Assembly (NCBI GenBank): GCA_014055465.1
Contig: WIAF01000001.1
Location: 248,001 to 312,000, forward strand
Reading direction: 5' to 3'
Source of the DNA: Nitrospira sp. CR1.1
GTDB taxonomy: Bacteria; Nitrospirota; Nitrospiria; Nitrospirales; Nitrospiraceae
DNA: 64,000 bases
Part shown: piece after piece, positions 48,460 to 62,654 of the stretch
Numbering within the stretch: the first letter of the stretch is position 1
Layout: every line of letters starts with the position of its first letter
Translations under genes and position numbers: made by a program
The notes under the pieces: generated by a model
The model's input: only the letters and a program-made list of their open reading frames with translations
Databases searched by the model: none
Told to the model about the DNA's origin: nothing

Positions 48460-48939
48460 CTAGGTCCTGGCAAGCACCACCGCTGTCAACAGAACCAGCA
48501 ACGCCACCAACAGCGACACGCGCGGTACAAGCACGGAGTAACGCACCAACAGCCGTTCCCGCGCACTTCTTGCAGCTTCAGCCGTTCCAAGAATGCGTCG
48601 CACCTGTGGTCCCACTACCAGATCGTGCAGCAGGGTAAGCGTGAACAACAAGGCCACCAATCCGATCTTCGCCATAAAAATAGACGGCCACTGCAATGGA
48701 TCGGTCAAGGGAATCGCCCGGCCGATGGCCAACGCCGACCCGGTGGCAACCAGGATCCCCATCGCGCCCCATACGAGAGTCCTGAATCGATACGCAGCCG
48801 TTCGAAAGAGGGCGGCGTGCCGCGCAAAGCCCCCATCCCGCTTAAGCACAGGCACCAGAACGACCGACAAAAACACCATCCCGCCGACCCATACCACTGC
48901 CGCCAGCAGGTGAATCCAGACCAATGCAAACACCAACAC
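48460..48939 (-). CDS. CopD-like membrane protein
   Basis: A 159-residue protein with four helices. The first (LVWIHLLAAVVWVGGMVFLSVVL) has the His and Trp pattern of CopD/DUF4149-type proteins, and the third ends LTLLHDLVVGP. CopD proteins are linked to copper uptake across the inner membrane. A copper role is consistent with the copper oxidase genes 4 kb away but is not shown by direct ligands. No partner CopC is adjacent. Confidence 0.7.
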   Translation of the reverse strand: MLVFALVWIHLLAAVVWVGGMVFLSVVLVPVLKRDGGFARHAALFRTAAYRFRTLVWGAMGILVATGSALAIGRAIPLTDPLQWPSIFMAKIGLVALLFTLTLLHDLVVGPQVRRILGTAEAARSARERLLVRYSVLVPRVSLLVALLVLLTAVVLART

Positions 48940-51541: not shown

Positions 51542-52252
51542 TCAGCGCTGGGCAATTCTGGAGAGGCGGTCCGGATTCAGCAGGGTGATGGCTCTTCCAT
51601 CGATGGTCAGGACTCCCTCATCGCGAAAGACGCCGAGCAGGCGGATGGCGGTTTCAACCGTAATCCCGGCCATCTCAGCCACTTCTTCCCGTTTGAGAGT
51701 CAGGCCAACCCGGACCTCATCGTCATGTTTTTTTCCGAATCGATCGCCGAGTTCCAGCAGCAGGCCGGCTAACCGCTCGCGGGCGGTTTTGAACGTGAAT
51801 TGATCGAGATGATCCATATTCACCCCGACTTCGTTACTGAGGAGCTGGATCAGCTTGATCGCCAGTTGAGGATTTCTGTGGATGACGGCGAGGTAGCGTT
51901 CCTTATCGATGACGCAGACTTGAGAGGGCTCCAAGGTCTCGCACGTCACTTCATGAAGGGCTCGGTCGCCAAAGACGTGTTTCTCGATCAACTCACCAGG
52001 GCCCAGGATGCGGACGATCTGCCGCCGGCCTCGCGTCGAAGAGCGGGTGAGCTTGACCTTGCCCGAGCATAACACGTACAGCCCCAGGCACACATGACCT
52101 TCGTAGAACATGGTCTGGTGAGGCGCGTATTCGAGCGTGCGTTTGATTTTTTGAAATTCGACGAGATCGCTTCCTGCAATATCGCAGAGCACAACCTTCG
52201 CGCGAAGCGTGCAAGTGCTGCAATTCTCAATAAGGCAGGGCTTCCGTTTCAC
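51542..52252 (-). CDS. Crp/Fnr-family regulator with N-terminal cysteines
   Basis: A 236-residue regulator: cyclic-nucleotide-binding fold about 25-140, dimer helix, C-terminal winged helix (LKREEVAEMAGITVETAIRLLGVF). The N-terminus has C6, C11, C14 and C23, a spacing close to that of FNR (CxxC then C), and two central cysteines (C103 in EVTCE and C112 near SQVCVI), so an oxygen-sensing [4Fe-4S] cluster is possible. It lies downstream of the SUMF1-fold genes on the same strand with 288 bases between them. Confidence 0.85.
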   Translation of the reverse strand: MKRKPCLIENCSTCTLRAKVVLCDIAGSDLVEFQKIKRTLEYAPHQTMFYEGHVCLGLYVLCSGKVKLTRSSTRGRRQIVRILGPGELIEKHVFGDRALHEVTCETLEPSQVCVIDKERYLAVIHRNPQLAIKLIQLLSNEVGVNMDHLDQFTFKTARERLAGLLLELGDRFGKKHDDEVRVGLTLKREEVAEMAGITVETAIRLLGVFRDEGVLTIDGRAITLLNPDRLSRIAQR

Positions 52253-52540: not shown

Positions 52541-53503
52541 CTACTCCTTCATCAGTGAAACCTTCGCTCCCGCATCCTCCTTGGCATCCTGCGCGCAACG
52601 GAAACCCATCCAATTGATCTTGGTCTTCGGATCAGTGCCGTTCCGCATCGCCGCCCGCATGGTGGTGGTGCTATCCATCCACCCGCCACCGCGGAAGGCT
52701 TTCTGGGTTCCGGTTTCCGGTCCCTTCGGATTCCGGGCCGGCGCGGTCTTGTAATAATCCTGGTCGTACCAGTCGGACACCCATTCGGCCACGTTGCCGA
52801 TGGTTTGATACAGCCCGTAGGGGCTCAGCGCATTCTCATACCTGTCGACGGAAATGATCGGCGGATACAGGAGCAACCGTTCGGGACGATCCCGCACCGG
52901 CCCGGACAATCCGGTTCTGCCGAAATTGGCCCGGGTCGGACCGGCATACTCGCTTCCCCACGGAAACAGTCTGCCGTCCACTCCACGCGCCGCTTTCTCC
53001 CATTCGGCTTCTGTCGGTAACCGCTTGCCTGCCCATTTGCAATACGCGTCCGCGTCGTACCAGTTGACGTGCATGATCGGATGATGCGCCATCGTGTCCT
53101 GGAAATTGCCTCCGTCGTACCGCCAGTCCAACTGCGGCAGGCGATCCGTGGCCAGGACGAACTTGAGATACTCCAGCGCAGTGACCTCGTACTTGCCGAT
53201 CATGAACGCATCCAGATACACGGATCGTTGAGGAATCTCGCTCCGATAGGCGAGGCGATCCGTTTTCTTGTCGCTCCCCATGAGAAACTCGCCCGCCGGA
53301 ATGAGGACCATGTCTTCCTTGGTCTTCCACTTTGCCACCCGTTCCTGAGCGATTTTTTTGCCGTCCTCCGTCCACTCAATCACGATGTCCTGCGTATCCA
53401 GCGCCCGTGCCACCGGAGCCAGCGCGAACAGCGCGGCTCCGATCATGAGAGCCTGCGCCCATCGTGCGCGTTTTCGTTTCATGCCCATGTGCACTCGTTT
53501 CAT
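52541..53503 (-). CDS. SUMF1/FGE-fold protein lacking catalytic cysteines (B)
   Basis: A 320-residue exported protein: signal peptide about 10-35, then the SUMF1/formylglycine-generating fold about 65-310 (VLIPAGEFLMGSD, DAFMIGKYEVTALEYL, GKRLPTEAEWEKAARG, NVAEWVSDWYD, GFRCA). In true FGE the motif after GGSW carries two cysteines; here GGGWMDSTTTMR has Asp and Met at those places. So it should not make formylglycine. NirV, beside copper nitrite reductase, has the same fold. The ATG at 53503 has GGAGGCC upstream. Confidence 0.87.
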   Translation of the reverse strand: MKRVHMGMKRKRARWAQALMIGAALFALAPVARALDTQDIVIEWTEDGKKIAQERVAKWKTKEDMVLIPAGEFLMGSDKKTDRLAYRSEIPQRSVYLDAFMIGKYEVTALEYLKFVLATDRLPQLDWRYDGGNFQDTMAHHPIMHVNWYDADAYCKWAGKRLPTEAEWEKAARGVDGRLFPWGSEYAGPTRANFGRTGLSGPVRDRPERLLLYPPIISVDRYENALSPYGLYQTIGNVAEWVSDWYDQDYYKTAPARNPKGPETGTQKAFRGGGWMDSTTTMRAAMRNGTDPKTKINWMGFRCAQDAKEDAGAKVSLMKE

Positions 53504-53535
53504 CTCTGGCCTCCTCGTTGTCCTGCCGTCAAAAT

Positions 53536-54468
53536 TCATCGATCCGTAGCGCGTCCCATGGCTGGATCGATGGACGAAAGTTGACGACCACTCTCGCCCG
53601 ATGTTGCACAGCGAAACCCTGTCAGGTAACTCCAGTGGTCCAGTCCTCCGGAATTGCGTCCGGCGGAACGGGCCACCTCGGGATCTTCATTCCAAGATCC
53701 TCCCCGGAACACCTTGTCCTGGCCCGTCGCAGGTCCCTGAGGGTTGCGATTCTCCTGGCGGCGGTAATACTCCGGATCGAACCAATCCGAAACCCACTCG
53801 CTCACATTGCCGGCCAACTGATGCACGCCGTACGGACTCACGCCATTGTCGTAGCGGTCCACATTGGCCAGCGGCGGATACTTCGCTCCTCGCTTGGACC
53901 CCGGGTGCGCGATGTTGCTTTTGATCCACCCGGCCGGCTCATTGCCCCAGGGAAACATGCGCCCATCCTCACCTCGTGCCGCTTTTTCCCATTCAGCTTC
54001 GGTGGGCAAACGAGCTCCGCGCCACCGGCAATAGGCATCGGCTTCCCGCCAGGACACGCCGATGACCGGATGTTTGGCCATCTTCTCCGGGAAGGGCTGG
54101 GCACGCCAGTATTGGGGCCAGGCCGCGCCCGTGGCCAACACATACCGGAGATAGTTCACGTTGCTGACTTCGTACCGGTCGATGTTGAATGCATCCACAT
54201 GGACCTGATGTTGAGGCAATTCCTGCGGTCCTGCGGCTCGATCAATCTTCGGATCGCTTCCCATCAAGAATGGTCCGGCCGGCACTTCGGCCATTCCGTT
54301 CGGCACCTCAATCAACGCCAACCGCTCCAGTTCGTCGAGCGGAGACCAGAGCGGCGGCGGTTTTGGCAATTCATGGTCAGCGTGGCTCGGCACAACAGAG
54401 CCGAGCACCAGCCCCGCGGCCATGCCCAGCAGGAGCATCGAGATTGACCCAGATAGCCATGTATTCAT
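53536..54468 (-). CDS. SUMF1/FGE-fold protein lacking catalytic cysteines (A)
   Basis: A 310-residue exported paralog of the next gene: signal sequence about 1-30, SUMF1 fold about 50-295 (EVPAGPFLMGSDPKIDR, RYEVSNVNYLRYV, ARLPTEAEWEKAARG, GNVSEWVSDWFD, GFRCA). At the FGE active site GGSWNEDPEVARS has Glu and Ala where FGE has cysteines, so formylglycine chemistry is again not expected. The two paralogs are 32 bases apart and lie behind the cupredoxin-like and multicopper oxidase genes, so they may be structural or maturation partners of that enzyme. Confidence 0.87.
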   Translation of the reverse strand: MNTWLSGSISMLLLGMAAGLVLGSVVPSHADHELPKPPPLWSPLDELERLALIEVPNGMAEVPAGPFLMGSDPKIDRAAGPQELPQHQVHVDAFNIDRYEVSNVNYLRYVLATGAAWPQYWRAQPFPEKMAKHPVIGVSWREADAYCRWRGARLPTEAEWEKAARGEDGRMFPWGNEPAGWIKSNIAHPGSKRGAKYPPLANVDRYDNGVSPYGVHQLAGNVSEWVSDWFDPEYYRRQENRNPQGPATGQDKVFRGGSWNEDPEVARSAGRNSGGLDHWSYLTGFRCATSGESGRQLSSIDPAMGRATDR

Positions 54469-54546: not shown

Positions 54547-55545
54547 TCAGTGCTCCTGCTTTTGGAGCAGAGGATCGATTTCCTTCTTCGCTTCCTCGGT
54601 CACGTTGTACCGGGTATACGCATGGTCCAAGACCTCATTGGCGTACAGCCGTCCGGTCGGCGCCGGCACGCCGATCGTTGTCTCAACGGCGCCCTTCGGA
54701 CCGATGGTGACAGTTTGTGACGTCTCGGTTCTGATATAGGGATGCCAGATGACCAACTTATAGGTGCCGGGAGGCACATCGGTGATGGTGAACCGGCCCT
54801 GCTCATCGGTCTTTGCAAAGTAGGGATTGGTAATGGCCACGCCCCAGCTCTCCATGTACGCGTGGAAACCGCATTGCATCACAAAAATCCGGCGGCCTTT
54901 ACTGAGTTTCACCAACTCCTTCATCGGCGGACCGGCCATGTGCTTGTGATACATGCCGGCCTCGGTGCGATCCTTAAAATTGCGCGGATGCTGGGGGTTC
55001 ATCGGAAGCGGCACATTGAACAGGACACGCGCGCCTAAATTCGACGTTTCATAGGCCTGAATGTCGTGCATCACCGGATCCATATTGACGACCGTCACCG
55101 ATTGATCGTCACGCACGACGGTCGTAAACGGCAGGAACAGGCAGTCCTTCGCCTCGATTTGCGGAACCTCTTTTTCCGCAAACGATTTACCCTGCTCAAT
55201 CCCTTCCAGATAGACAACGACTTCCCGGAACTCCCCGTTCGGGCCCACATTAAATGGCTGGAGAATGCGCCAGCCTTCTCCGTCGGAAATGCGCCCGCAA
55301 TAGTAGGGGTCAGGCAGCGTAGTCAGGTTGTACCCTTTCGGTTTCGGAACCGTACCCTCGAGCCTGACGAGTCCGGATAGCGTTCCTCCATCGGACACGG
55401 TGATTTCTTCATAGGCCGACGCCGGATCACTCGCGAGAAATCCTGCGATAGCCATCGCCGCCAGACCTAGCCCCCAACCGGAAACACGATGCTTCATCTG
55501 TTGTTGCTCGCTCTGTGCTGTAGTCCTCAATGTCACACCTGTCAC
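54547..55545 (-). CDS. Exported cupredoxin-like protein with carboxypeptidase-regulatory-like domain
   Basis: A 332-residue exported protein. After the signal peptide (hydrophobic part near residues 25-42), residues about 50-240 resemble a cupredoxin-type domain: candidate ligands are H in VMHDIQ and C, H, M in MQCGFHAYM. Residues about 240-300 are a carboxypeptidase-regulatory/Cna-B-like domain (GRFTITDVPPGTYKLVIWHP). GTG at 55545 has GGAGG six bases upstream; ATG at 55497 is an alternative. It lies between the multicopper oxidase and the SUMF1-like genes, so an electron-transfer or copper-carrying role is likely. Confidence 0.78.
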   Translation of the reverse strand: MTGVTLRTTAQSEQQQMKHRVSGWGLGLAAMAIAGFLASDPASAYEEITVSDGGTLSGLVRLEGTVPKPKGYNLTTLPDPYYCGRISDGEGWRILQPFNVGPNGEFREVVVYLEGIEQGKSFAEKEVPQIEAKDCLFLPFTTVVRDDQSVTVVNMDPVMHDIQAYETSNLGARVLFNVPLPMNPQHPRNFKDRTEAGMYHKHMAGPPMKELVKLSKGRRIFVMQCGFHAYMESWGVAITNPYFAKTDEQGRFTITDVPPGTYKLVIWHPYIRTETSQTVTIGPKGAVETTIGVPAPTGRLYANEVLDHAYTRYNVTEEAKKEIDPLLQKQEH

Positions 55546-55562
55546 AACCGGCCTCCTCTGTG

Positions 55563-55613
55563 ATGGGTTTCTGTACGATCGACCTATCGTCGTGATCATA
55601 CAGGAAACCCGTC
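55563..55613. promoter_or_regulatory. Imperfect 20-bp hairpin before the cupredoxin gene
   Basis: gggtttctgtacgatc is repeated as an imperfect complement (gatcatacaggaaaccc) within about 50 bases, just upstream of the cupredoxin-like gene. It follows the terminator-like hairpin at 55646-55680 in transcription direction, so it could be an operator, an mRNA-stabilising stem or a leader structure. Confidence 0.5.
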
Positions 55614-55706: not shown

Positions 55707-58700
55707 CTATTTCATGGCAGTCGGAATCGCCTGCGGCTCAGGCTGCACGTCGGCTTGACGTGCACCCGCGCCACTTGCGCTGAGAGGCTGAATTCGCGAA
55801 TCGCCGGTCGGCAAGACGCGCAGATACCCCCACTGTCCAGACTGCGTATAGGGCAGCCGTGCATTCGACCACACGAAGTCACCCACCTGACGATACGGTC
55901 CGCCCGCACCGCCACGGATGAAGACATCGAGGATCTCAGACCCGGCGTACTCCACGACGCTGATCATGTCGGCACCCGCCATGTACGGCTCGATCGGCCA
56001 CTCGTGGCCCTCGACGCTGAACATGCCGTTCTGCTCGCTGTTCGCCCCGATCACATGGATACGGAGCGCGTCACCCGCATGCGCCTCGATGAGAGGCGTG
56101 ACGGGATCTTCGGGCTTATCCACCGCGCAAGGCTGGAAGATTTTGCCCAAGGAGCACCCTTGTTCTTCGCGGAACTTGTACGGTTCAGCGCGGTAGTTCA
56201 CCGACGTCAAACCGGCCACGTTCTGCACATAGGGCATGAAGGCGGTGCCGATGATGTTGTCCTCGTCTTGGAAGAAGAGGGCCACGTCCCGGTAGTTCCG
56301 CTTGCCGGCATTTTCAGACAAGGTGGTGTCGACGATGACGTCGGCCCGCCATGTGTTTTTCTGCGACACATCGGCACCGGTGACTGGATCACGATACTGC
56401 GATCCCTTCGGACCGATGACGATCGCGCCGTACAATCCGTTGCGCGGATTGACGACGATGTTCCCGCCGTCCCACACCAACGACGTCGTTTCCTTGTTTG
56501 CAGGATGCGCGTAGTAGGTATAGGTGCGGCTCTCGCCCGGCGCCACGGTCTGGTCGCCGGCATTGTTGCCGACGTTCAAGCCCTGGCTATCCTTCGGATC
56601 AAAGGCCAGGCCCGGCGCAAAGAACGACGCCCGGCTCGCCTTCATCTTGTTCTTCAGATTCACCTTGATACAATCGCCCAGATTCGCGCGCAGCGTGAGC
56701 GGATTCGGCATCACGTTGCCCGCCACGGTCGCGGCTTCTTCCTCCAACGCGAAGATCTTGCCTTCCGGCATGGTCATTTCGATCTTCCGCTCGAAGTCCA
56801 CCTCGATCGCATCCGGGGCCTTCGGATTGAGCTTCATCGGGCGATCCAACGCCACGACGTTGAAGCTCTTCACCGGAGCATCCGACGGACAGACGGAATT
56901 GGGAGTCGCCGGAATCCCGAGAGGATTGGTCCCCTTGGGCAACGGCATCAAATCCGCCACTGGCTTGTCGAGCACACGGAGAATGCCCCAACCACCTTCG
57001 GCGAAGTGTGACGTTCTGCCGTTGAAGTGGATGTAGTCACCCGGCATGCCCTGGAATCCACCCGCCTTGGTGACGAGGTCATACCGCTCGGCGATCCCGA
57101 CGTGAATCGAGTTCTTGCGGTTGGCCTCCGGCGCATACCGCTCCGTGAGGAAGGTATGTCCGGCGATCGTCCAGACGTGGGATTCGTTCATCAGCTGATG
57201 CAACAGGCGGAACACCATGGTGTCGCCCGTGTACGCCCGCAGGAGCGGCGTGCCCGGATCACCATGGATCGCGCTGCTGAACAGCTTCGAGGTGTCAGGA
57301 TTGTTGGACAGGCGTTGTGCAAACGGAGCCGCGCGGAAGTTGAAACCGCTGCCGGTCGTATGCGTGCCGCCGTTGATGTACTTGTTCGGCGCGTTCAGGA
57401 TCTTCTCCGGCATCTGGAAGGACACCGTCTTTCCTGCTTCCAACGCCACTTCGATCGGCTGTCCGGGAGGATTGCCGGCCTCGATGACATTGACGGTGTG
57501 CGGAACCGTGTCGTGGATGGAGACCATCAACTCACGGAAGCTGCCGCTGACACCGGCGCCGATCGGCTCGTTGCTGTGAATGTCCGCGATCGGACCGCTA
57601 TACACCAACTTGCCGTTCTTCGGATCATGATAGGTGGATCCGTATGGCTCCACGATCGTCACGCCGAACCCGCCATGCGGCCAGGTCGTCGCGCCGAACG
57701 CGTGGTCATGCCAGAACACCGTTCCCATGTCCACGTCCACCCACCACCGGTACCGCACGAACTCCGGCGACACAAGATCACCCGCCGGGTGGCTGTGCTT
57801 CAGTGGCTTGAAGAACGTGACCATATCGCCCTTGATTTCCTTGACCCGGGCGACTTCCTGACAGCTCTTATCCCGCGGCAGTGACGCTGCAGGGTCGTTG
57901 CCCTTCTCCAAACAATCCATGCCCACCATCAACTCGGTGTTGACGTGGAACGCGGTGGCGCCGGGCGCCATCTGGATCTTAATGGAGGTGGCGCCGGCTT
58001 TCGCCTCGCCCGTGAGCTTCGCCACCATCGGTGCCGGCAAACCATGCTTGGTCTTCTTGCCCCACATGGTGAACGGCCGGACCGACATTTCGTACTCCAT
58101 CCCGGAGATCACACCGTCCGAGTTCCCGGTATCGAACTGGAAGAAGTGAGGATGGATGTTGATCTTGGACGACTGGAAGTTCGTGTAATCGTCGTCGTCC
58201 CATTCGCTGGTCAACAATAAGTCCACGCAGTCATACACGTTGGCGCGGATGACGGCGGGCAGTTTCAGATCGTCATTGGCTCTGGTCAAACGCTCTTCTT
58301 CGTGAAGGACGTAGATCAGACCATCCTTGTCCACCATGGCCGGCTCTTTCCCCTGCTTCTTGGCGAGGGTGATCGGCATGCGGACAAAGTGAATGTTGTA
58401 ATGCTTCCGATTGGCGTTATCAGGGCACAGGCTCCAACGGCCCTGTTCGCCCGGCATCGCCGGCTCGGAGGTCCGCTCACCATTTGCATCCTGGTGAATC
58501 GGCTCCAACCATGGCGCACCGCTGTGGTTCGCCGAGAACGGCACGCGCTTGCCGAAGTGCGGCTTGAACAACGGCCAGGCCATTTTTCCTGTCGTCGGAT
58601 CGAACAGGATTGCCGGTCTGGTGCTGTCATCCCACTTGGCGGCCCACTGATACTTCGGATTTGGAGCCGTGCTCTCCCGCTCACCGCGGGCGATGTTGCC

Positions 58701-60644
58701 GTCCCATTTCCAGTCCCACACCGTCGAATCGTAGGCCATGATCTGGCCCTTCTCATCGCCCGTGTGGCCCGGTTGACCCTGGGCCGGGACAAACATTTCG
58801 ACCCAATCCTTGATGTTCACAATCACAGGATCGGACTTCCAGTTCGTCTTCTGGCTCTTATCGACGATCTTGAAGGTCTTGCCGAACCAGTCGACCGTGG
58901 TGCCGATCAACTTGTCGGACGAGACACCCTGCTTCATGCGGCCCAAGCGATCCGGCAATTCGCGCATATCCGGCATCGTGTCGGTGTGCGCATTGCCGAC
59001 CTGCAACGTATTATAGAACCGGCCGTACCCCCACATGCCCGCCACATAGTGATGCGCGACGTGGCAGTGATAGAGAAATTCTCCGGCCAGATGCTGACAG
59101 CCACCGCCGCCGCATTCCGGTTCCAGGTCGAGGGCCTCAGAAGGGCCGACGACTTCCACGTCCACCCGATCGGACTTCGTCCGGACCACGGGATATTTCA
59201 CCGGTCCGTCCTGTCCCTTAAACCAGTGCTCTTCCTGGTCGGCACGCGGGCTGCGCTGCCAACGGATGGTGCCGCTGTGCGGATGGTGGGAGTGGAACAC
59301 TTCCGATCCACCATGGACCAACCGCCACTTGACCGGATCACCGAGGTAGCCGCGGGCTACCGTGGTGGGAGGGTCACCGAAGGTGTAGGCGCTGTAGGCC
59401 AGCGACTCATCTTCGAAGCCGAAATATTCATGCTGCAAATGCATCTGATCGATGCCGAACGGCTCGCTGCGATAGTTGATCGCGCGGCCACCCGGACGAT
59501 AGGCGTCGGTCAACGGATCGCGCTGGGGCAAGAAGTCGCCCTTCTTGTTCAGCGGCCGGAAGGCTTCGTCGCCGATTTCGTGATAGAACAACACGAATTC
59601 GCGGAAGTCCGGTCCTGACCCGTTATCGATCATGACCTGCCATCCGCTGTTCGTATCGGGCGCGGCGCCCGTGCCAAGCGGATCGAGGTACTTGGAGCCC
59701 TTAGGTTCAACGATGAAAGCACCGAAGAGTCCGAGCACGGTCAACTCACGATCATGGCTCCAGGAGTGGAACTGACGCACACCTTCCTGCATGCCCGGAT
59801 GGATGTACCACTCGAACTCCTGCGCCTTTCCTGGCGAGACCACCGTATCCGGATTGGTCGTCGTGGCGGGCTTTCCAGTGGAACTGACGATCATGCTGGA
59901 AGCCTGGATCACCAAGCTGCCGTCCTCGCCTTCCATTTGGTTGCGCAGCGTCATCTTGACGCAATCGCCCTGGTTGGCGCGGAGCACCAGCGGCTGGATG
60001 ACATCCCCCTGGTTTCCGGTTGTCACCGCACCAGGGTCAAAGCCGTCCTTTTCGCGCGCTTCCTTGTTCTTCGCTTCCTCGGCTCGCGCCTTGTCGATAT
60101 CACCGGTGTGGACGTACATATAGCCGGGATAGAAGTCGAGCCACCGATTCAAGCTGATTTCGATGTTGATCATCGACACGTCGTACTTCTTGACCGGCGC
60201 ATTGGCAGGACATTTCCCGCCCGAAGTCATGACCGGCTCACCCTTCGACGCATCGGAGGCCAGCAGGAAGCTGCTGCCATCCTGCCCCATATACTGGTGC
60301 ATCATCGACATTTCGTTGAATGCACCGGACGTCTGCTGCGCCTTCGCATCCGTCTTCGCCTGCTGTTCCAGCTTCTCCATCAGGCGGTGATGCTGCATCT
60401 CCATCTTCTCTGCATTCCCGGCACGACCCTCCATGGCGTTTTCCACCACGGTCTGACCCTTCAGGGTCTGGGTCCAGCCCGGCATGGCAACCGGCGTCGC
60501 ATGTCCCTCATGCGACTGATCGCCCGGCCCGGCCGCGAACACCCACGGCGCGGCAAGCAAACTGCCCGAGAGCAGCGCCGCCTGCAGGCTCAGCATCGCT
60601 TTGCGACTGATGCGCCTGCGTTTTGACTGCACTGAAGACCTCAT
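55707..60644 (-). CDS. Giant three-unit multicopper oxidase (ceruloplasmin/MofA-like)
   Basis: A 1645-residue exported multicopper oxidase (signal region 1-38). Three tandem units begin with the same strand: CPANAPVKKYDV at 145, CPDNANRKHYNI at 740, CPSDAPVKSFNV at 1252, each followed by an LRAN.GDC strand (221, 799, 1318), so about six cupredoxin domains. Unit 1 has the full HCH-xxx-H-xxxx-M motif (H526, C527, H528, H532, M537) plus HSHHPH (451-456). Unit 2 has HPHFFQF (831-833) and WHDHAFG (979-981). Size and plan recall Mn(II) oxidase MofA and ceruloplasmin; the substrate is unknown. Strong SD GGAGGGAGG; sigma-54 promoter at 60882-60898. Confidence 0.88.
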   Translation of the reverse strand: MRSSVQSKRRRISRKAMLSLQAALLSGSLLAAPWVFAAGPGDQSHEGHATPVAMPGWTQTLKGQTVVENAMEGRAGNAEKMEMQHHRLMEKLEQQAKTDAKAQQTSGAFNEMSMMHQYMGQDGSSFLLASDASKGEPVMTSGGKCPANAPVKKYDVSMINIEISLNRWLDFYPGYMYVHTGDIDKARAEEAKNKEAREKDGFDPGAVTTGNQGDVIQPLVLRANQGDCVKMTLRNQMEGEDGSLVIQASSMIVSSTGKPATTTNPDTVVSPGKAQEFEWYIHPGMQEGVRQFHSWSHDRELTVLGLFGAFIVEPKGSKYLDPLGTGAAPDTNSGWQVMIDNGSGPDFREFVLFYHEIGDEAFRPLNKKGDFLPQRDPLTDAYRPGGRAINYRSEPFGIDQMHLQHEYFGFEDESLAYSAYTFGDPPTTVARGYLGDPVKWRLVHGGSEVFHSHHPHSGTIRWQRSPRADQEEHWFKGQDGPVKYPVVRTKSDRVDVEVVGPSEALDLEPECGGGGCQHLAGEFLYHCHVAHHYVAGMWGYGRFYNTLQVGNAHTDTMPDMRELPDRLGRMKQGVSSDKLIGTTVDWFGKTFKIVDKSQKTNWKSDPVIVNIKDWVEMFVPAQGQPGHTGDEKGQIMAYDSTVWDWKWDGNIARGERESTAPNPKYQWAAKWDDSTRPAILFDPTTGKMAWPLFKPHFGKRVPFSANHSGAPWLEPIHQDANGERTSEPAMPGEQGRWSLCPDNANRKHYNIHFVRMPITLAKKQGKEPAMVDKDGLIYVLHEEERLTRANDDLKLPAVIRANVYDCVDLLLTSEWDDDDYTNFQSSKINIHPHFFQFDTGNSDGVISGMEYEMSVRPFTMWGKKTKHGLPAPMVAKLTGEAKAGATSIKIQMAPGATAFHVNTELMVGMDCLEKGNDPAASLPRDKSCQEVARVKEIKGDMVTFFKPLKHSHPAGDLVSPEFVRYRWWVDVDMGTVFWHDHAFGATTWPHGGFGVTIVEPYGSTYHDPKNGKLVYSGPIADIHSNEPIGAGVSGSFRELMVSIHDTVPHTVNVIEAGNPPGQPIEVALEAGKTVSFQMPEKILNAPNKYINGGTHTTGSGFNFRAAPFAQRLSNNPDTSKLFSSAIHGDPGTPLLRAYTGDTMVFRLLHQLMNESHVWTIAGHTFLTERYAPEANRKNSIHVGIAERYDLVTKAGGFQGMPGDYIHFNGRTSHFAEGGWGILRVLDKPVADLMPLPKGTNPLGIPATPNSVCPSDAPVKSFNVVALDRPMKLNPKAPDAIEVDFERKIEMTMPEGKIFALEEEAATVAGNVMPNPLTLRANLGDCIKVNLKNKMKASRASFFAPGLAFDPKDSQGLNVGNNAGDQTVAPGESRTYTYYAHPANKETTSLVWDGGNIVVNPRNGLYGAIVIGPKGSQYRDPVTGADVSQKNTWRADVIVDTTLSENAGKRNYRDVALFFQDEDNIIGTAFMPYVQNVAGLTSVNYRAEPYKFREEQGCSLGKIFQPCAVDKPEDPVTPLIEAHAGDALRIHVIGANSEQNGMFSVEGHEWPIEPYMAGADMISVVEYAGSEILDVFIRGGAGGPYRQVGDFVWSNARLPYTQSGQWGYLRVLPTGDSRIQPLSASGAGARQADVQPEPQAIPTAMK

Positions 60645-60881: not shown

Positions 60882-60898
60882 CGCAATTGATGTGCCCC
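60882..60898 (-). promoter_or_regulatory. Sigma-54 (-24/-12) promoter of the multicopper oxidase
   Basis: The minus strand reads GGGCACATCAATTGCG. Against the consensus TGGCACG-N4-TTGCA the invariant GG and GC are both present with exact spacing (12 bases from GG to GC), CAC and TT also match, and only flanking positions differ. It lies 238 bases upstream of the oxidase ATG and 320 bases downstream of the end of a sigma-54 activator gene. Confidence 0.75.
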
Positions 60899-61218: not shown

Positions 61219-62622
61219 CTACTGGATGCCGAACTCGTGCAGCTTGTTATAGAGACTTGCCCGGCTGATCTTCAGGAGACGGGCAGTTTTCACCCGGTTC
61301 CCGGACATTTGCTGCAAGGCTTGAAGAATGCGGGCCCGTTCGGCCTGCCTGGCCGCATCCCGCCCAACCGTACGCAGATCGGCGGGCTCTGCACGGGATC
61401 CCAACGCAACCAGATCCGCGCAGGTCAACTCCGAATGAGTGGTGGTGACGACCGCGCGCTCGATATAGTGCTGCAGTTCGCGCACATTTCCTTGCCAAGG
61501 CGCCGCGGTCAAGGCGCGCATCGCCTCATCGCTCACCTGACGAAGCTCTTGCCGATGTCGTTGGCAGGAATCCGCAATGAACTTGGTCACCAAGAGAGGA
61601 ATATCCGCTCGCCGCTCTCGCAGCGGGGGCAAGTGAACAGGCAACACCGCCAAACGATAGTAGAGGTCCTGCCGAAAAGCCTTGGCCTTGACGAGGTCGG
61701 CCAAATCCTTGTTTGTCGCTGAAATGACACGGACATCGATCTTAATGGGCTGGGTCCCGCCGACTCGCTTAATCTCGCCTTCCTGCAGAACACGCAGCAG
61801 TTTCGCCTGAAATGTCGGAGATGTGTCGGCAATCTCATCCAGGAAAATAGTCCCGCCGTCTGCCTCTTCGAACAGACCGGGCTTTGCCCCTGCCGCGCCG
61901 GTGAAGGCGCCTTTGACGTGGCCGAAGAGCTCACTCTCCAACAAGGTCTCGGGGAGCGCACCGCAATCCACGACCACAAAGGGTTTGTCTCGACGATAGC
62001 TGGTGTGATGAATGGTCCTGGCGACGAGTTCTTTCCCTGTCCCGCTCTCTCCTTGGATCAAGACCGTCGCCGAGCTATCGGCCACCAGCCGGATCAGATC
62101 AAACAATTGATGCATGACCGCACATGCGCCGACAAGGTCGCCCAAACGTGACTCGGTCCGTTCCGGACGCGACCGACCCGATTTTTGTTGAAGCACAGGC
62201 GTCGGAAGGGATTGGGGATCAGACGGCTTATGGAACAGGACGAGGACCGAGCCGACTTCGCCTGAGGCCGACATGAGCGGGAAGGCCTGATGCATGCCGC
62301 AGGCGGTGCCATCGCCAGAACTGTTACAGGCAACGGTACGAACCTCACGTGTCTCAAACACCGATTCGGCCGGACAGGTTCCGCACGGATCTTTCAGCTG
62401 AACAAAGGCTTCATAACATTTGGCCGGTTTGCTGACCGAGGGATCCCTGCCTCCGCTGGCCCAAGCCGCGTCATTGGCGTACACCACATTCAGGTCCCGA
62501 TCCATGACGGCAACACGGTCGGTCAATCCATCCGCGAGTTGCCGAAGCGCTTCCAATCGTGCGGCAAGAATGGGATCAGCGAAGGGAGAAGAGGCTACTC
62601 TTGGCGCGTGAGATCCGGCCAT
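61219..62622 (-). CDS. Sigma-54-dependent activator with cysteine-rich PAS domain
   Basis: A 467-residue regulator. Residues about 25-140 are a PAS-like domain with many cysteines ([28 protein letters not shown]), then a AAA+ domain about 165-395 with Walker A GESGTGKE, the sigma-54 contact motif GAFTGA and Walker [12 protein letters not shown], and a Fis-type helix-turn-helix ([22 protein letters not shown]). There is no receiver domain, so the PAS-Cys region probably senses a metal or redox signal. The ATG at 62622 has AAGGAGTG upstream. It precedes the multicopper oxidase gene and likely activates it. Confidence 0.88.
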
Positions 62623-62654
62623 CTCATCACTCCTTATCTCAGAAGAAACCAAGC

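Follow-up and report, generated by a model that had tools for sequence, protein, structure and literature searches.

Nitrospira are nitrite-oxidizing bacteria that are common in soil and sewage. They are major nitrite and ammonia oxidizers and carry a conserved giant copper oxidase. In the 64,000-nt window analysed here, which sits within a 4.44 Mb Nitrospirota genome, two genes for SUMF1-fold proteins were located beside such an oxidase by a first-pass annotation, and both proteins lack the cysteines of the formylglycine-generating enzyme (FGE). This raises the question of what a pair of proteins with the fold of FGE does next to a copper enzyme. The oxidase is 99% identical to the giant oxidase of Candidatus Nitrospira defluvii, which places the source organism near this species within Nitrospira.

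Read on the minus strand from position 60644 downwards, the two genes are the third and fourth of an operon-like set of four in the order MCO, REG, S1 and S2. MCO (55707..60644) encodes a giant MnxG-like multicopper oxidase of 1645 aa, referred to as copy 1. REG (54547..55599, with a likely ATG at 55497), which lies between MCO and S1 and was not mentioned in the first-pass annotation, encodes a secreted protein with cupredoxin-like and CarboxypepD_reg domains. The ORF of S1 extends from 54492 to 53536 and gives 318 aa from a GTG, while the ATG at 54468 (gene 53536..54468) is the end point that had been annotated; S2 (53539-52541) encodes 332 aa and overlaps S1 by 4 bp (ATGA). On the same strand a regulator of the Crp/Fnr family is encoded downstream (51542..52252; PF13545/PF00027), which is only loosely linked to the set because it is present in part of the orthologous loci. 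A few kb downstream there is additionally a gene for a CopD-like or DUF4149 membrane protein (48460-48939, minus strand) with a possible copper link.

The multicopper oxidase assignment of MCO is based on a PF07732 match (E=1e-11) and on copper motifs. HSHHPH, HCHVAHHYVAGMW, HPH and HDH as well as the general HxH and HCHxxxHxxxxM motifs were invariant in 12 aligned sequences, and orthologs were found across the family. The match to the MnxG model NF041487 was weak (E=1.5e-32) and reached 111.6 bits against a cut-off of 3100. In the passages available from Luecker et al. 2013 (PMC3578206), an MnxG-like MCO of Nitrospira and Nitrospina is described, its conservation in Ca. N. defluvii is noted, and a role in defence against reactive oxygen species is proposed; the MCO of the present window very probably belongs to the same family. 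For members of the Manganitrophaceae, two novel MCOs apiece have been reported (PMC9040806).

For REG, the CarboxypepD_reg domain (PF13620) was found at the C-terminus. Foldseek searches with the AlphaFold model (pLDDT 77) returned blue or purple copper proteins, the best match being 5fc9, the purple cupredoxin of Nitrosopumilus maritimus (TM 0.73 on target). Moreover, the ligand-like set H178, C243, H246 and M249 is invariant across orthologs. With the modelled fold and the His-Cys-His-Met set of a cupredoxin, REG is predicted to bind copper.

Both S1 and S2 were recognized as SUMF1-fold proteins by near-full-length matches to PF03781 (E=8.6e-54 for S1 and 6e-58 for S2), the pair scoring 196.9 and 183.3 bits against a gathering cut-off of 23.3, and the AlphaFold model of S2 resembles FGE structures. 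N-terminal signal sequences, judged by eye, are typical in both proteins. Alignment to human FGE, whose active-site cysteines are C336 and C341, bore out the residues given in the first-pass annotation: S1 has E and A at the two positions (GGSWNEDPEVA for human GGSYMCHRSYC), and S2 has D at the first and, when ungapped, M at the second (GGGWMDSTTTM), where the HMMER alignment of S2 places a gap. These replacements are kept in the orthologs, with E/A in 49/50 rows of S1 and D/M or D/V in 53/54 rows of S2. The sole cysteines, C155/C295 in S1 and C167/C315 in S2, correspond to the structural disulphide C218-C365 of human FGE. As had been noted for the oxidase, no CxPxR target motif is present in MCO, and none was found in REG, S1 or S2 either. 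By their active sites, S1 and S2 are therefore not formylglycine generators, as the first-pass annotation had stated, and FGE activity on CxPxR targets was rejected.

The ancestry of the two proteins was analysed in a tree of 51 rows, which also contained 14 rows for further SUMF1 genes of the genome, one FGE and two NirV proteins. The orthologs of S1 and S2 formed one clade (29 rows, support 100/99), pointing to a common ancestry of the pair, and this clade stood apart from FGE, from NirV and from the other SUMF1 rows of the genome. NirV was placed on a very long separate branch. Since the bootstrap was not fully settled and long branches were present, only the S1/S2 clade is to be trusted in this tree.

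The first-pass annotation had likened the locus to the pairing of NirV with the copper nitrite reductase NirK, a likeness that holds for the architecture and not for the descent. The adjacency of NirV and NirK itself was found again: a Rhizobium cluster has the order nirK-SUMF1-Crp-pseudoazurin, and NirV is reported from about 61% of nirK genomes (PMC4770552), its function being stated as unknown (PMC10356946). Among the nirK loci retrieved with a Nitrospira NirK as query, one carried an annotated NirV (L205), one a NirV-like ORF downstream (L206) and one neither (L204). Two plasmid SUMF1 genes considered as NirV candidates were discarded, one being an FGE gene beside a sulfatase (L202) and the other an unrelated gene (L203). 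In the alphaproteobacterial NirK-NirV system as in the present locus, the gene of a periplasmic copper enzyme has directly downstream of it one for a SUMF1-fold protein that lacks the cysteines, and a pseudoazurin or cupredoxin gene and a Crp/Fnr regulator are nearby. In contrast, the present locus has two paralogs, a 1645-aa MnxG-like oxidase instead of nirK as the neighbour, and a sigma-54-like promoter. In direct comparison with NirV, S2 gave no significant match and S1 gave 29% identity over 190 aa (single-pair E=4e-8), which together with the separate long NirV branch led to the rejection of a close kinship.

The survey of gene neighbourhoods proposed in the first-pass annotation extended the pairing with the oxidase well beyond the window. 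For 53 distinct copy-1 MCO loci, 4 kb or more of downstream sequence was available. In 49 of them a gene of the S1/S2 clade lay on the same strand no more than 4 kb downstream, and in 45 both genes did, while the chance level of such a neighbour in the genome is about 0.8%. The linkage was kept across the Nitrospirales in three gene orders: the Nitrospiraceae have MCO-REG-S1-S2, four loci from a different family or genus (L087, L182, L183, L196) have MCO-S2-REG-REG, and two loci (L166, L173) have MCO-REG-S2. Moreover, the presence of the genes followed that of the oxidase. Among the sampled genomes of the family an S2-clade gene was found in 36/36 with copy-1 MCO and in 1/10 without, S1 orthologs in 32/36 and 0/10, respectively, and within one genus (g2) the S2-clade gene in 12/12 and 0/7; these counts come from related genomes and therefore overstate independence, and the joint loss of S2 and MCO in the family partly reflects loss of the whole operon, by which linked genes are removed together. 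From these genomic comparisons, the partnership of S1 and S2 with MCO is well supported. The pair is not required for every such oxidase, because both genes were missing nearby in four copy-1 loci (L071, L133, L141, L178) and most MCOs of copy 2 and type 3 have no S1/S2-clade gene next door. An unlinked S2-like paralog (C1:514 kb; L042:9062-10789) adjoins the gene of an uncharacterised secreted protein without Pfam match, and S2 has the same neighbour in L173.

Upstream of the set, 253 bp from the MCO start, a putative sigma-54-like -24/-12 element, GGGCACATCAATTGC, was identified on the minus strand (60882..60897). The pattern NGGC[AC]YN5TTGC was present upstream of 61/66 copy-1 MCO orthologs, of 2/58 copy-2 orthologs and in 0.75% of shuffles; due to the fact that it was picked after the first matches had been seen, the contrast to copy 2 is the better control. 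A generic sigma-54 pattern stayed at chance level over the whole window; only the comparison of this position across orthologs was informative. The operon showed no excess of sigma-70 promoter or terminator signals over shuffles. Upstream of MCO, a sigma-54 activator with a Cys-rich PAS-like N-terminus, an AAA+ domain (PF00158, E=1e-70) and a Fis HTH is encoded on the minus strand (61219..62652). Homologs of it were found no more than 4 kb upstream in 36/59 copy-1 loci versus 2/44 copy-2 loci. It is a candidate regulator and a candidate metal or redox sensor.

In the reading favoured here, to which a probability of about 0.5 is assigned, MCO, REG, S1 and S2 together constitute a secreted copper-oxidase module in which S1 and S2 are FGE-fold pseudoenzymes. 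They would bind the giant MCO or its cupredoxin partner through the former FGE substrate groove and would act, structurally instead of catalytically, as docking or assembly subunits that are required for building or stabilising the oxidase complex. Such a use of the fold is known from PorK, in which a Cys-less FGE fold serves as docking hub and the substrate groove has been converted to a protein interface (PMC12421860). The PorK/GldK proteins of type 9 secretion are likewise envelope proteins, but PorK contains large insertions and assembles into rings, and S1 and S2 scored far below the GldK cut-off (106 and 113 bits with TIGR03525 against 350). The role of S1 and S2 with MCO may be comparable to that of MnxE and MnxF, both of which are required by MnxG (PMC5622069). 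As in MnxEFG of Bacillus, two small accessory genes accompany a giant MCO, which in the present locus is a distant match to the MnxG model. The differences are that this MCO scores far under the MnxG cut-off and that S1 and S2 have the SUMF1 fold, whereas MnxEFG is a manganese oxidase whose MnxE/F are like no characterized protein. A narrower form of this idea, that S1 and S2 together make up a heteromeric FGE-fold subunit which replaces MnxE/F in an MnxG-like oxidase complex, is put forward tentatively and is rather doubtful; if true, no earlier case of an FGE fold as multicopper oxidase subunit would be known, and this one would have arisen independently of NirV.

The linkage evidence, namely the 49/53 loci and the tracking of MCO presence, is the same whether S1 and S2 are lasting subunits or act only transiently in the periplasm on MCO or the cupredoxin, as chaperones or as maturation factors that insert copper, and are absent from the finished enzyme. 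Copy-2 MCOs without adjacent S1/S2 are as expected of a trans-acting factor, and all genomes with copy-1 MCO that have no linked S1/S2 retain an unlinked S2-like gene. Such a maturation role is nevertheless judged somewhat unlikely: no conserved extra cluster of Cys, Met or His by which copper could be handled was seen, the regularly conserved cysteines being those of the FGE disulphide pair only, and NirV has been reported not to be mandatory for NirK maturation (PMC4770552). A further alternative, that S1 and/or S2 modify a residue of MCO or REG enzymatically by a new chemistry, is less probable still and is kept in consideration mainly because the former active-site loop is strongly conserved. 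This loop hardly varies among the S1 sequences (GGSWNEDPEVARSAGR) and shows good conservation in S2 as well (GGGWMDST), which exceeds the need of a pure scaffold, and the near-invariant stretches GGSWNEDPEVARSAGR and GLSGPVRDRPERLLLYPP of the ortholog alignment could mark a catalytic or ligand site of a new kind. The SUMF1 fold is shared by EgtB, OvoA and PvdO, whose activities are different, and PvdO and EgtB were among the sequence and structure matches of S1 and S2. However, the scores of both proteins (64-115) were far under the NCBIfam equivalog cut-offs for PvdO, EgtB and SenA (360-500), and the loss of both FGE cysteines and the lack of CxPxR in MCO and REG argue against an enzyme as well. 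That S1 and S2 are generic Nitrospira SUMF1 members which stand beside MCO by accident and have no functional tie to it would agree with the 10-20 SUMF1 genes per genome that are usual in the class, all of them Cys-less in the genome examined, but is very improbable in view of the linkage in three gene orders, the exclusive clade and the tracking of MCO presence.

The first-pass annotation had also suggested that SUMF1-fold proteins serve copper enzymes widely, a general rule that found no support in a small sample of plasmids and Nitrospirota, because the NirK of the genome itself, its other SUMF1 genes and distant giant MCOs show no such pairing. The NirK-like gene of the genome is located on contig C7, where no SUMF1 match was found, and among the remaining SUMF1 genes of the genome those inspected adjoin regulators, methyltransferases, proteases and the like. 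A SUMF1 gene was found near 0/3 distant giant MCOs of the Nitrospirota phylum and near neither of the two checked outside it, in Streptomyces and Priestia. On a plasmid of Streptomyces sp. NBC_00335 (L207), a giant MCO with 33% identity over 92% of the length is followed by a CopC gene and by no SUMF1 gene. The missing cysteines are not a special mark of S1 and S2, since no further SUMF1 gene extracted from the genome showed the FGE cysteine pair.

The passages available from Luecker et al. 2013 (PMC3578206), a paper in which 'formylglycine' and 'sulfatase' are absent, do not mention the SUMF1 pair, the link to a cupredoxin or the sigma-54-like site, and the literature passages searched contained no link of SUMF1 proteins to the Nitrospira MCO. 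The operon, defined by a predicted cupredoxin, an FGE-fold pair and sigma-54-like control, provides concrete partners for the giant oxidase, which may be needed for an active enzyme, as with MnxEFG. It also represents, beside NirK-NirV, a second and evolutionarily separate case in which a periplasmic copper enzyme is associated with an FGE-fold protein that lacks the cysteines, and the role of NirV therefore becomes testable by comparison.

The second MCO paralog (copy 2, ~67%) is followed by two REG genes (L039; G000:C4:44000-63999), and ~12 kb beyond, beside membrane oxidase-like genes, lies a second SUMF1 pair belonging to different clades. A location of the copy-2 MCO near nxrA on one contig was considered and not seen, the molybdopterin matches being on other contigs. 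A third MCO type occurs in tandem pairs (L061, L101, L102, L117). Between or beside the paired genes, the opposite strand carries a SUMF1 gene that is divergent (35-38% to S2) and possibly represents a separate recruitment.
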